From Chamaesiphon sp. 341R_metabat_111 (GTDB lineage Bacteria > Cyanobacteriota > Cyanobacteriia > Cyanobacteriales > Chamaesiphonaceae), in the NCBI GenBank assembly GCA_025351825.1, contig JANXVE010000091.1, positions 1 to 40,172 on the forward strand: DNA of 40,172 nt. The letters are read 5' to 3'. Shown here in pieces: positions 23,801-36,729 of this stretch (position 1 is the first letter of the stretch; the number at the start of each line of letters is the position of its first letter). Below the pieces are notes generated by a model. It made no database searches. It saw only the letters and a program-made list of their open reading frames with translations, and had not been told where the DNA came from. A program made the position numbers and the translations under genes.

Positions 23801-23923
23801 AAAAAACAAGCCAAAACCGACAGAATCTATCAGCTCGATCGATCTTTATTAAATGATGGGCGTGCTGAAATATTCAACGTCTGGCAACATCAACAAAGCC
23901 GAGAACTCGTCCGATCTGCTTAA
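20894..23923 (+). CDS. CyRepA1-type plasmid replication protein (DUF3854 plus helicase-like ATPase)
   Basis: A 1009-residue protein of the family annotated as plasmid replication protein CyRepA1 in cyanobacteria. The N-terminus has LDPHHYTELVNDSNID, then GGWWCGGLDPLNNWELMDWG. A DUF3854 toprim-like part has ICEGVKKAATLL (about 165) and ICVCFDHE-like VCFDHE (about 223). The ATPase has Walker A GIKSPKGTGKTT (327-338), THRIQLG, and Walker B VIILDEVEQ (about 407-415). The frame extends to a TTG at 20840, but ATG 20894 gives the usual family N-terminus. No other plasmid genes flank it, so it looks like an integrated or domesticated replication gene. The downstream palindrome at 23967-24025 may end its transcript. 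Confidence 0.82.
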   Translation: MGPTNLDPHHYTELVNDSNIDRALVALNFESLVANSACDRLFISQQIPRTNSGQVKPAWMRRYKHCLQGGWWCGGLDPLNNWELMDWGTFKPDMPAKNKEGKVIKYEHPPQLSTKVFCLRITKGIWIQIANLFKVKLPQKIEVNSQGESVGFWQWVIDAKIPVTICEGVKKAATLLTYGYPAIALPGINSGYRIVRDFQDNPIGRKLIPELAVFANRKQSISVCFDHEIVPHKAKLLDTAIVHLGELFEQAGANVNVIRLPGPEKGVDDLIVAQGINSFKQVYEQAVALEIDLARTKRNSELTYPIDLELVDRYLPKIDFPTSGIVGIKSPKGTGKTTALIPVVATAQADCRPVLLLTHRIQLGQFLCKRIGVNWIDEQLPKQSSHSLGLCLDSIWKINPADWEGGVIILDEVEQSLWHLLHSSTCKKKRLAILKIFQNLIARAIETDGLIIAQDADLSDISIDYLKTLASSEIEPWIVLNRWQAEQGWDVSFYDSPNPTALVHQLELDLRAGYKCYVTTDSRSGRYGSDTIDRYIQQNLKQLENNYAKTLVVSSYTTNTTGHPAVDFVSEINTQATEYDAVFVTPSLGTGVSIDVKHFDRVYGIFQGVISDAEVRQALARVRADVPRYIWCAKRGIGRIGSGSNNYRSLATWYQENHKENFALMCPMVKMDVDMPLVFDPIHLRTWSKFAARINAATMLYRETVKMGLIGEGHQLNIISDDSDREKLRLLRTALIKAIKTDPQKSLEIMREIATVHKETAKLDRQHDSIGTETKKIQQQVKIQAAQAIAAASDIGHRDYQYLSNKRFVTDLERAQIERYNLQERYGVSVTPELKLKDDKGYYGQLLTHFYLLNHQQYLPQSIYVVWDRDIDFRQNTVFLPDANHHTLKIQGLLALDIISFLDPNREFQITDPDLVSLKRISYLCSQHIKRAIGIDMPAYNNGEVSPILILNRFLQIIGLKVKLVPSKAKKQAKTDRIYQLDRSLLNDGRAEIFNVWQHQQSRELVRSA

Positions 23924-23966
23924 TCTATGGCGTAATTCTGTAGACATTATTACTGCTACAACCCGT

Positions 23967-24025
23967 GGGTACCCATTAAGGGCACCCCTACAAGTTATCT
24001 GTAGGGGTGCCCTTAATGGGTACCC
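23967..24025. repeat. Perfect 26-bp inverted repeat with GGGTACCC ends
   Basis: The arms at 23967-23992 and 24000-24025 are perfect inverted copies around a 7-base loop (AGTTATC). Each arm contains GTACCCATTAAGGGCACCCC or its complement. It lies between the replication gene and the glycosyltransferase start. No T-tract, so it is more likely a palindromic repeat (REP/MITE-like) than a classical terminator. Confidence 0.85.
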
Positions 24026-24068
24026 TAAGATCTACGATTTTACTAATATTTACCTACTGTTACAGGAT

Positions 24069-25391
24069 GTGAACATACTTTCATTAGATCGAAATCGCAC
24101 CTTAATTATTTTTACCCGTTATCCTACTCCAGGGAAAGTGAAAACTCGGTTGATTCCCGCCGTTGGAGCTGAAGGTGCCGCCTTATTACATCGCCAAATG
24201 ACTGTACAGGTAATAGATCGATCGAGAGCATTGCAAAGCGATTTGCCTGTAAAGATTGCAGTCCACTTTGATGGTGACAATTACCAGCAAATGTCTGATT
24301 GGCTGGGGACAGATTTAGGTTATCAATCTCAAGGAGAAGGTGACGTTGGAGCGCGGATGGCTCGATCGTTTTCTACTAGCTGTCAGCGCAATTCTTCAGT
24401 AGTTTTGATCGGTACCGATTGCCCAGAAATAACTATAGACATCCTCGCCCACGCATTTGAATTGCTCCAATCAGGGCGAGATTTAGTACTAGGCGGCGCA
24501 GTAGATGGGGGCTATTATCTAATTGGGATGCGCGATTATCACCCCAAATTATTTGTTGATATCGATTGGAGTACCGATCGAGTATTGCAGCAAACCGTCG
24601 CCATTGCCAACCGCCTGAATTTATCAATTGGCTATCTCCCTACCCTCACCGATATCGATCGACCCGAAGATTTGTCCATCCTAACCCAAAACCTCGCCTC
24701 AGCCAAAATCTCGATCGTCATTCCTGCACTAGATGAAGCTGCCACAATCACCAAAATCATTGCTAGCATTCATTCTCTTCCCCAAGTAGAGATTCTCCTG
24801 GTAGATGGCGGTTCAAGTGATAGCACCATCAAAATTGCCCAAGAATTAGGCGTGCGAGTTTTATCTTCCCCCAAGGGACGCGCCCATCAAATGAACGTCG
24901 GAGCCAAAGCTGCAACGGGCGAAATCCTGCTCTTTCTTCATGCCGATACCATTTTGCCATTAGGCTTCGAGCAGATGGTGCGATCGACCTTGCAGCCACC
25001 TCTGGAGGAATCTAGAACCCCACCTGTTGCAGGGGCTTTTACGCTCCAAATTGATGACTCGATGTCAAGCTTGAGATCGATCGAGCGGCTGGTAGCTTGG
25101 CGATCGAAATGGCGGCAAATGCCCTATGGAGATCAGGCAATTTTTCTCACCGCAGAGACATTTAGAAGCGTCGGTGGCTTTGCGGAAATGCCAATCATGG
25201 AAGATTTTGAGCTGATTAAAAGATTGCAGCGGTTAGGACGAATTGAAATCCTCGCCGCACCTGTGATTACCTCCGCGCGGCGTTGGCTTCAGCGAGGAGT
25301 ATGGCAAACAACCTTAATCAATCAAGCGATTGTCATTGGCTATTCGATCGGTATTTCACCAACTAGACTAGCAACTTGGTATCGTCGTTGA
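24069..25391 (+). CDS. Fusion of DUF2064 and family 2 glycosyltransferase domains
   Basis: A 440-residue two-domain protein. Residues 1-205 are a DUF2064 (TIGR04282-type) nucleotidyltransferase-like domain with FTRYPTPGKVKTRL, GEGDVGARM, VVLIGTDCPEI and GAVDGGYYLIG. Residues 215-440 are a GT2 domain (TIGR04283-type) with ISIVIPALDEAATI, LLVDGGSSDST, LFLHADTILP and MEDFELIKRL. These two families are often adjacent and have been named after arsenosugar biosynthesis, but that role is not shown for this gene. I take GTG at 24069 as start, because the frame upstream (to 23853) runs through the perfect inverted repeat and the end of the replication gene. Confidence 0.85.
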   Translation: MNILSLDRNRTLIIFTRYPTPGKVKTRLIPAVGAEGAALLHRQMTVQVIDRSRALQSDLPVKIAVHFDGDNYQQMSDWLGTDLGYQSQGEGDVGARMARSFSTSCQRNSSVVLIGTDCPEITIDILAHAFELLQSGRDLVLGGAVDGGYYLIGMRDYHPKLFVDIDWSTDRVLQQTVAIANRLNLSIGYLPTLTDIDRPEDLSILTQNLASAKISIVIPALDEAATITKIIASIHSLPQVEILLVDGGSSDSTIKIAQELGVRVLSSPKGRAHQMNVGAKAATGEILLFLHADTILPLGFEQMVRSTLQPPLEESRTPPVAGAFTLQIDDSMSSLRSIERLVAWRSKWRQMPYGDQAIFLTAETFRSVGGFAEMPIMEDFELIKRLQRLGRIEILAAPVITSARRWLQRGVWQTTLINQAIVIGYSIGISPTRLATWYRR

Positions 25392-33811: not shown

Positions 33812-35200
33812 TTAGTCGATGTCGTTCAAGAACAATGTTGGCTCGGTTTCGCGATCGATTCCTTTCTCGAAACCAGCAGCAGCAGCGCGGGCGCGTCCTG
33901 CATGCCATAGGTGTCCGATAAAGAAGAAGAACCCTAGAACGAAGTGGGAACAAGCCAACCACGCACGAGGTGAAACGTAGTTGAATGCGTTGATTTCAGT
34001 GATGACACCACCAACTGAGTTCAAGGAACCCAATGGCGCGTGAGTCATGTACTCAGCAGCACGACGTGCTTGCCAAGGTTGAATATCATTCTTGACTTTG
34101 CTCAAGTCCAAACCGTTAGGTCCACGAAGTGGCTCTAACCAAGGACCTTGGAAATCCCAGAACCGCATGGTTTCACCACCAAAGATGATTTCGCCCGAAG
34201 GTGAACGCATCAGGTATTTACCCAAACCAGTAGGACCTTGAGCGGTTGCAATGTTTGCACCCAATCTTTGGTCACGGATGAGGAAGGTCAATGCTTGTGC
34301 TTGGGAAGCCTCAGGACCAGTAGGACCAAAGAATTCGCTAGGGTAAACAGTGTTGTTGTACCAAACCATGATTGACGCTACAAACGCCATCAGGGATACA
34401 GCAGCTAAACTGTAGGACAGATAAGCTTCGCCAGACCAAACGAGCGCACGACGTGCCCAACCGAAAGGCTTGGTGAGAATGTGCCATACACCACCGGAGA
34501 TGCACAATAATGCAACCCAAATGTGTCCGCCAACAACGTCTTCTAAGTTATTGACACTGATAATCCAGCCTTCGCCACCGAAGGGAGCTTTTAGTAAATA
34601 ACCGAAGATGATTGCAGGGTTGAGAGTAGGATTGGTAACGATGCGAACATCTCCACCACCTGGTGCCCAGGTATCATACAAGCCACCAACAAACATTGCT
34701 TTGATGACTAGCAATAATGCACCACAACCTAAAACAATCAGGTGGAAGCCCAAGATTGAAGTCATTTTGTCCTTGTCTCTCCAGTCGTAACCGAAGAAAG
34801 AAGAATACTGTTCTAAGGTGTCAGGTCCACGCAATGCGTGATACAAACCACCAACACCTAATACCGCAGAGGAGATCAAGTGCAGTACACCAACGACGAA
34901 GTAAGGGAATGTATCCACAATTTCGCCACCAGGACCGACACCCCAACCTTGGGTAGCCAAGTGCGACAGCAAGATAATACCTTGCTCGTACATTGGCTTT
35001 TCGGGTACGAAGTGAGCTACCTCAAACAGGCACATCGCTCCAGCCCAGAACACAATCAAACCAGCGTGGGCGACATGTGCGCCCAACAGCTTACCAGACA
35101 GGTTGATCAAACGCGCGTTGCCAGACCACCAGGCAAACCCTGATGATTCTGCGTCGCGTCCGCCACCTGCAACCATTGTAGGATTAAAGGGCGTTTCCAC
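33812..35200 (-). CDS. psbC: Photosystem II CP43 chlorophyll protein (PsbC)
   Basis: CP43, 462 residues from GTG 35200, beginning [16 protein letters not shown]. It has the six-helix antenna fold with conserved [20 protein letters not shown], a large lumenal loop, and GGETMRFWD carrying the Glu and Arg that contact the Mn4CaO5 cluster. It ends [16 protein letters not shown]. The frame continues upstream to a GTG at 35290, but homologues begin at V/METPFN. The start has GAGG 10 bases upstream. Unlike the usual overlap with psbD, it begins 93 bases after the psbD stop. The sequence around the start retains what looks like the end of another psbD. Confidence 0.93.
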
Positions 35201-35240
35201 TCTTGCAGTACCTCGATCGATGAATATAAATGCGGAATCA
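35201..35240 (-). pseudogene. Vestige of a second psbD 3' end at the psbC start
   Basis: On the minus strand, immediately before and across the psbC start, the sequence holds TTTATATTC (Phe-Ile-Phe), then GAGGTACTG (Glu-Val-Leu), then GGAAACGCCCTTTAA (Gly-Asn-Ala-Leu-stop) at 35197-35183 in another frame. These are, in order, the last elements of D2 ([14 protein letters not shown]-stop). In the ancestral overlap GTGGAAACGC serves both as D2 codons and as the psbC start. Small indels separate the pieces, as expected for a non-functional copy. Confidence 0.6.
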
Positions 35241-35281
35241 AAAAAACCGGAAGATAAACATAAGTATATATTTATCTTCCG
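35240..35281 (-). terminator. Terminator-like hairpin between psbD and psbC
   Basis: On the minus strand CGGAAGATAAA (35281-35271) pairs perfectly with TTTATCTTCCG (35258-35248) around a 12-base loop, and GTTTTTTTG follows directly. It has the form of an intrinsic terminator and could limit read-through from psbD to psbC. Confidence 0.65.
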
Positions 35282-35293
35282 ACGTTTCACAGT

Positions 35294-36358
35294 TTAGAGT
35301 GCGTTACCGCGTGGTAATACTTCTTCTGGGAAGATGAATTGTTCGTGTGGTTGATCCTGTGGAGCCATCCATGCGCGGATGCCTTCATTGAGCAGAATGT
35401 TCTTGGTGTAGAACGTTTCAAACTCAGGATCTTCAGCAGCTCTCAATTCTTGAGAAACGAAGTCATAGGCACGGAGGTTTAGTGCTAAACCAACGATACC
35501 AACGGAACTCATCCATAGTCCAGTCACAGGGACGAAGAGCATGAAGAAGTGTAACCAACGTTTGTTCGAGAAAGCTACGCCGAAGATTTGCGACCAGAAA
35601 CGGTTCGCAGTTACCATCGAGTAGGTTTCTTCAGCTTGGGTTGGGTCAAACGCGCGGAACGTGTTTGAAGATGAACCGTCGCCGTCTTCAAACAAGGTGT
35701 TTTCTACAGTCGCACCGTGAATTGCACACAGTAGCGCACCGCCAAGAATCCCTGCAACGCCCATCATGTGGAAGGGGTTGAGAGTCCAGTTATGGAAACC
35801 TTGAAGGAATAAGATGAAGCGGAAAATTGCAGCTACTCCAAAGGAAGGTGCGAAGAACCAACCAGATTGACCCAATGGGTAGATCAAGAAGACGCTGACG
35901 AACACTGCGATTGGGCCAGAGAAAGCGAGCGCGTTGTAAGGACGAATCCCAACTAGACGAGCGATTTCAAACTGACGGAGCATGAAGCCAATCAAACCGA
36001 ACGCGCCGTGTAGAGCAACGAATGCCCACAGACCGCCGAGTTGACACCAGCGAGTGAAGTCGCCTTGCGCTTCAGGACCCCAAAGTAGCATCAGGGAGTG
36101 CCCAACGCTATTAGGAGGAGTGGAAAGTGCTGCGGTCAGAAAGTTACAACCTTCGAGGTAACTAGATGCTAGACCGTGACTGTACCAAGAAGTAACGAAT
36201 GTGGTACCAGTCATCCAGCCGCCGAGGGCCATGAACGCACATGGAAATAGTAAGATGCCAGACCAACCGACAAATACGAACCGATCTTTTTTTAACCAGT
36301 CGTCTAAGACATCAAAGATGCCTTTGTCAGATTGCTGGTTGCCAACTGCAATTGTCAT
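35294..36358 (-). CDS. psbD: Photosystem II D2 protein (PsbD)
   Basis: The 354-residue D2 protein of the PSII reaction centre. Tyr160 (TyrD), His197 (P680 chlorophyll), His214 and His270 (iron ligands; 268 in the usual numbering) are present. It ends [12 protein letters not shown]. It has two residues more than the usual 352, in the D-E loop after DGDGSS. CTGGAG lies about 13 bases before the ATG as ribosome-binding site. The 3' end lacks the CGTGG that normally forms the overlapping psbC start (here CGCGG). Confidence 0.97.
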
Positions 36359-36729
36359 GACGCAGTAAAACTCCAGATATTATAGGGACATTATTTCACG
36401 CGATCGGCTCAAACAATATAATCATAAAGTCGATACGCTTAAACTTAGCCGATTTATTAAATCAGTTTACGTTTCTTCATTAAGTTTAGTATGATTATGC
36501 CGAGATTGGCAGATTCTTTAGCTGTTTTTAGCTAAATTTAATATTTTCAATAGAAATTATGCCTTCTATTCTCATTTTACGGCAATTTCATAAGTATAAA
36601 TACTCATAAATAGTTTGAAGACTGGGGATCGCCGATCCTGATTGCCGTGAAGAAGTCGGTTATCTGTCTAGTCACTAGATTATCGTTCGGCTTACAATTA
36701 AGTTCAATCCCAAAATTCCTCTTCTATAT
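36359..36729. other. Divergent promoter region between psbD and the UPF0367 gene
   Basis: About 370 A/T-rich bases without a gene. It must hold the psbD promoter (minus) and a promoter for the gene at 36730 (plus). No -35/-10 pair stands out. A TATAAT at 36384-36379 lies too close to the psbD ribosome-binding site to be its -10 box. Confidence 0.5.

Follow-up and report, generated by a model that had tools for sequence, protein, structure and literature searches.

The psbD and psbC genes of Chamaesiphon sp. 341R_metabat_111 are uncoupled by a spacer, at a locus where overlap of the two genes is normal, and the region in which psbC starts is, judged from its sequence, a remnant of the coding tail of D2. 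Our main reading, to which we assign a probability of roughly 0.55, is that the old D2 tail serves as the psbC start and that a partial terminator in the spacer would give an excess of D2 in place of a second psbD gene (psbD2). Overlap of psbD and psbC is described for most cyanobacteria and all plastids (PMC9325196). The tobacco genes are reported to overlap by 17 bases, with translational coupling suggested and psbC also having its own promoter (PMC8133689), psbC of Synechocystis reportedly begins with GUG (PMC9845219), and D2 of Synechocystis is described as having two genes, one of them in a psbDI:psbC operon (PMC12661319). The far-red (FaRLiP) psbD/psbC paralogs reportedly do not conserve the overlap (PMC9325196); as described there, they resemble the present locus in having no overlap, whereas the psbD and psbC described here are the only ones found in their genome rather than extra copies. 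A literature search, which covered few subscription papers, returned no title on loss of overlap in the ordinary psbDC operon among the matches listed.

The window, i.e., the whole stretch of 40,172 nucleotides that was analyzed (contig JANXVE010000091.1 of assembly GCA_025351825.1), carries the two genes (Table 1) in an arrangement that resembles the overlapping psbDC operon of cyanobacteria and plastids in gene order, strand, the GTG start of psbC and the GAGG before it. The closest relatives of the genome likewise place it within Chamaesiphon. The arrangement differs in that 93 bases, the hairpin among them, lie between the psbD stop codon and the psbC GTG, just as the sequence-only reading had claimed, rather than psbC starting within the last psbD codons. 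The psbD end also has neither a ribosome-binding site nor a start for psbC; it reads GAA and CGC, and both the GAGG and the GTG reside in the remnant. The absence of GTG from the psbD end, to which the sequence-only reading had pointed, was borne out as an observation but is not the key event: CGC is present only in the window and in one congener (G003), and the other seven Chamaesiphon genomes have CGTGG and are equally uncoupled. A longer, 492-residue psbC reading frame with an N-terminal extension was rejected as a mechanical over-extension, there being stops within the extension in six of eight congeners. Elsewhere in the window, a single plus-strand open reading frame (23853-25391) fuses domains of the TIGR04282 and TIGR04283 arsenosugar-biosynthesis type.

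Table 1. Features of the psbD-psbC locus, numbered from the first base of the window.
Feature	Position	Strand	Remarks
psbD (D2)	35294..36358	minus	Intact, 354 aa; NCBIfam psbD equivalog; sole copy found in genome
psbD stop codon	35296-35294	minus	
psbC (CP43)	33812..35200	minus	GTG start at 35200-35198; psbC equivalog; single copy found in genome
Terminator-like hairpin CGGAAGATAAATATATACTTATGTTTATCTTCCG	35248..35281	minus	20 arm bases invariant in 9/9 Chamaesiphon genomes
Seven-T tract, 3' of hairpin	35240..35246	minus	
psbC leader and start block TTCATCGATCGAGGTACTGCAAGAGTGGAAACGCCC	35189..35224	minus	Invariant in 7 aligned genomes
GAGG, inferred psbC Shine-Dalgarno site, from former D2 Glu-Val codons	35211..35214	minus	
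Remnant of D2 C-terminal coding tail	35184..35214	minus	Glu-Val-Leu ... Gly-Asn-Ala-Leu-stop in the other frame, with one extra base
AAGAAACGTAAA, 5' of psbD	36467..36478	minus	Also 5' of sister-genus psbD1, absent from its psbD2 (by eye, G010 flanks)

The claim that psbC starts within a remnant of the D2 tail withstood a shuffled-spacer control. The gene begins inside AGTGGAAACGCCCTTTAA, a stretch in which 13 of 18 bases are those of the window's own psbD end (99th percentile of shuffles, 12), and the match in the eight congeners is 14/18 in seven and 13/18 in one. GAGGTACTG is found in all nine Chamaesiphon genomes, and both in this genus and in its sister genus (G009 and G010) one extra base breaks the D2 frame of the remnant. 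The further suggestion that TTTATATTC (Phe-Ile-Phe) belongs to the remnant did not survive: it occurs in five of the nine Chamaesiphon genomes and in neither sister genome and lies one base out of the D2 register, and for these reasons we treat the resemblance as due to chance. Some other lineages have a plainer remnant than Chamaesiphon, and a complete, in-frame one, reading Glu-Val-Leu-Pro-Arg-Gly-Asn-Ala-Leu-stop (EVLPRGNAL-stop), is present in Microcoleus vaginatus HSN003 (L083). On a recount, the match over 18 bases where psbC starts exceeded the 99th percentile of shuffles in 9/9 Chamaesiphon genomes, 12/35 other uncoupled loci and 0/2 sister genomes. Outside Chamaesiphon, then, the part of the remnant other than GAGG and GTG is in many cases decayed, and the general claim of a remnant is weaker there.

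In overlapping loci the second Glu codon at the D2 end is GAG and, with the next G, yields the GAGG before the psbC GTG, which is likely the psbC Shine-Dalgarno site. A strict count of distinct loci found GAG in 81 of 82 overlapping psbD genes, GAA in all 32 uncoupled psbD genes and GAGG in all 32 uncoupled psbC leaders; this count leaves out loci with <330 bases of psbD, among them both leaders without GAGG. The single exception among the overlaps, L091 (Nostoc sp. CHAB 5715), was typed as overlapping yet has neither the psbC GTG nor GAGG, and is perhaps a chimeric assembly of two psbD copies. A wider recount, which takes the short-psbD loci back in and types 62 overlaps by a looser rule, gave GAG in 62/62 overlapping loci, GAA in 43/46 uncoupled psbD genes (GAG being kept in the other three) and GAGG in 44/46 uncoupled leaders, with AAAGG in its place in the psbC leaders of G252 and G123. 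The change from GAG to GAA in uncoupled psbD, together with GAGG in the leader, indicates that the site was retained in front of psbC and is mostly gone from psbD. Among 46 stand-alone psbD genes, 36 have GAA and 10 have GAG.

The separation is neither unique to Chamaesiphon nor visibly a psbD2 import. Of 100 psbC regions from other genera, 96 could be typed, and 61 of these overlap (including G175, counted as an overlap by its sequence) and 35 are uncoupled; the regions were hand-picked for genus diversity, with Chamaesiphon and the sister genus left out, from about 150 places listed by rank of similarity to the window psbC (257 of 291 genomes matched), and so 35/96 is not a population estimate. 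By inspection of the four untyped regions, G129 is uncoupled, G166 is overlapping, G083 is seemingly uncoupled but cut, and G121 is without a psbD end nearby. In this last case (L219) there is no psbD end within 957 bases 5' of psbC and psbD was found on another contig, so that the genes may have been separated further than in other uncoupled loci. Named uncoupled loci include those of Microcoleus, Oscillatoria and a Coleofasciculus MAG. A psbC gene tree of 102 loci, built quickly from the DNA of this one gene and with some forks unresolved, requires 12 changes between the overlapping and uncoupled states, at least six of them forced by starred branches.

As to how the genes came apart, the sequence-only reading had proposed that psbD1 was replaced by a psbD2-like copy bringing its own terminator; if this occurred by gene conversion, the psbD2 3' flank would have come with it. 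In 18 two-copy genomes the copies share 95-99.7% identity across the 3' part that was compared, which makes conversion likely, and 57-60 of their last 60 coding bases are the same. Moreover, the Chamaesiphon hairpin and T-tract are similar in kind to the ends of stand-alone psbD genes, in which psbD is likewise followed by a hairpin and T-tract (32/36 flanks). The Chamaesiphon locus differs from these in that psbC follows, and no clear homology of the flanks was seen either in the 18 genomes or between Chamaesiphon spacers and the sister-genus psbD2 flanks. For 17 of the 18 genomes, the similarity between the spacer and the psbD2 3' flank was under the 95th percentile of shuffles, and G118 was just over it (score 28 vs. 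26, with a shuffle maximum of 37). None of the nine Chamaesiphon spacers scored above the 95th percentile against the two sister-genus psbD2 flanks, a result that weakens the import proposal further, whereas four of the nine (G001, G003, G004, and G008) matched the sister psbD1 spacers above all 500 shuffles with both sister genomes. Two more (G006 and G007) did so with one sister genome, and the spacers of the window, G002 and G005 were under the 99th percentile. A spacer shared throughout a clade had been named as evidence that would count against import, and that is partly what was found, all nine Chamaesiphon genomes sharing theirs. An import old enough for its flank to have decayed would be compatible with the mismatch of flanks, and a psbD2 3' flank with the CGGAAGATAA palindrome in relatives is what this already weak model would need; overall we consider import of psbD2 to be quite improbable.

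Instead of import, we propose that the psbD 3' end was rewritten upstream of the old end, via local partial duplication or recombination, and that the old D2 tail would have been left behind as the ribosome-binding site and start of psbC. For this route, as distinct from the remnant itself, we draw on other lineages. In Oscillatoria sp. PCC 10802 (L060) two copies of one AT-rich palindrome in the spacer enclose a degraded D2 tail of 108 bases, and in L177 a degraded D2 tail is flanked by two spacer copies that agree at 72 of 79 positions; by their structure both loci carry local tandem duplications in which the psbD end was copied along with its spacer. Further remnants of the D2 tail inside the spacer occur in G009 (13/18), G010 (14/18) and G032 (15/18), and such remnants are seen also in G153 and L060. 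G126 has a broken second psbD (G126:C3:4883528-4884419; residues 1-218 with a TGA, residues 307-354 separate), and the tail at its psbD1 locus is duplicated as well. Uncoupling first arose earlier than the present data can show.

In all nine Chamaesiphon genomes (including that of the window) psbD, the hairpin, the T-run and the psbC leader are present. The psbD stop and the psbC GTG are 93-100 bases apart in seven of them and ~300 in two (G002 and G007), and the psbD1-psbC spacer of the sister genus is 241-256 bases long. The leader and start block differs at one base in G002, which was outside the alignment of seven genomes. The ~240 extra spacer bases of G002 (L127:6352-6590) and G007 (C246:5511-5747) lie between the hairpin and psbC, are 78-79% alike and recur in part at other places in G003 and G004; they are possibly a mobile or RNA element. 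As to whether the Chamaesiphon gene corresponds to psbD1 or psbD2, its upstream region has a 12-base motif in common with the sister psbD1 (by eye), with a whole-region score that is not significant for the window, and by synteny no upstream neighbors are shared with the sister genus and a downstream kinase ORF matches L120 at 45%.

One psbD was found in each of the nine Chamaesiphon genomes, including a 3-contig assembly, and two in both sister genomes, with one copy truncated where a contig ends in G009. Among the matches listed, 72 genomes had ≤10 contigs, and of these 65 carry two psbD genes, four a single one and three more than two; counts from draft assemblies of other genera are unreliable, as 12 of 14 inspected single hits were the stand-alone copy. 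The second, spare psbD gene seems to have been lost in Chamaesiphon.

The hairpin and seven-T tail that the sequence-only reading placed between psbD and psbC are both there. The hairpin core, CGGAAGATAAA...TTTATCTTCCG, folds with 15 pairs (-18.1 kcal/mol) and is followed on its 3' side by GTTTTTTT, i.e., a G and then seven T. Folding of a 131-base stretch was more stable than that of all 200 shuffles (z -3.16), and for the window spacer alone z was -3.7, with 0/200 shuffles as low. A scan found four terminator-like sites, against 3.4 expected, of which the psbD-psbC hairpin is by far the longest. As in intrinsic terminators, a stable stem-loop lies directly before a T-tract (15-17 pairs, T7) in all nine Chamaesiphon genomes, but the stem is AT-rich rather than G+C-rich (G-C pairs, 4/17). 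Compared with the complete invariance of the hairpin arms, 15 of 45 four-fold sites are invariant in the last 330 bases of psbD (nine genomes) and 25 of 65 at the psbC start (eight genomes). Since the arms are identical and thus without covariation, their conservation could reflect sequence rather than structure. The hairpin and the psbC leader are two elements that look selected.

When distinct spacers were counted by a common rule (a T-rich stretch immediately preceded by a stem of ≥7 pairs, with dG ≤ -8), a stem with T-tract was found in 9/9 Chamaesiphon spacers, 2/39 other uncoupled spacers and 32/36 stand-alone psbD flanks (36 of the 37 loci given). In 20 of 24 genera with uncoupled genes, the folding z score of the spacer is under -2. 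Hence it is the hairpin plus T-tract that marks Chamaesiphon, while spacer hairpins as such recur across genera. A dispersed palindromic repeat was considered and rejected, as across the nine Chamaesiphon genomes the palindrome occurs at the psbD-psbC locus only, this locus being present on two contigs in G007. No Rfam family was found at the gathering threshold in the spacers of five related loci other than the window. The Rfam family IsrR, the antisense RNA of isiA, gave four hits, far above cut-off, all inside psbC and antisense to it (L122:9277-9463 and the psbC genes of L119, L121, and L127), probably because psbC resembles isiA, or else because psbC has a real antisense RNA.

We suggest that in Chamaesiphon the spacer hairpin turned into an element resembling an intrinsic terminator in sequence and, presumably, in activity. 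It probably acts as a partial terminator and 3'-end stabilizer, at which the majority of psbD transcripts would stop and through which the remaining fraction would continue into psbC. A single locus would then give D2 message in excess of CP43 message, and the excess would stand in for the seemingly lost psbD2, whose supposed job elsewhere is the same. That the hairpin is instead an mRNA processing or 3'-stability element, with an incidental T-run, fits the finding that so many uncoupled genera have stably folding spacers, yet so few spacers outside Chamaesiphon are terminator-like; the T-tract being present in 9/9 Chamaesiphon genomes speaks against it, and we regard it as unlikely. It is less likely still that the hairpin is a full terminator and that a separate promoter in the spacer makes psbD and psbC independent units. 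The strength of the hairpin with its T-tract would suit such an arrangement, as would a TATAAT at or after the T-run in three congeners (G003, G005, and G006) and the ~200-240 extra bases at this place in G002 and G007. However, the TATAAT is found in just 3/9 Chamaesiphon genomes, and in the window a search of the minus strand from the hairpin to psbC gave no sigma-70-like site, which favors read-through over an independent psbC unit, although psbC may have a promoter of another type. Whether psbC expression is coupled or independent is also at issue for the tobacco genes in the account cited above; the difference is that here the overlap is absent, and with it termination-reinitiation at one site. 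Returning to partial termination with read-through, its link to psbD2 loss comes from one clade and has counter-cases in G145 (one psbD, ordinary overlap) and G036 (one psbD found, uncoupled spacer, no T-tract). The broader account, that the overlap has been dissolved repeatedly in cyanobacteria with GAGG and GTG kept and a hairpin usual, and that the Chamaesiphon terminator would be an attenuator that replaces psbD2 and sets the D2:CP43 ratio in one operon, is offered tentatively, as having somewhat less than an even chance.

In about one third of the loci sampled from one order the overlap of psbD and psbC has been dissolved, and the remnant is still the psbC start region. These uncoupled loci serve as natural tests of whether it matters that D2 and CP43 are coupled. 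Chamaesiphon among them is a one-operon, one-psbD system, in which the hairpin may set the ratio of D2 to CP43.
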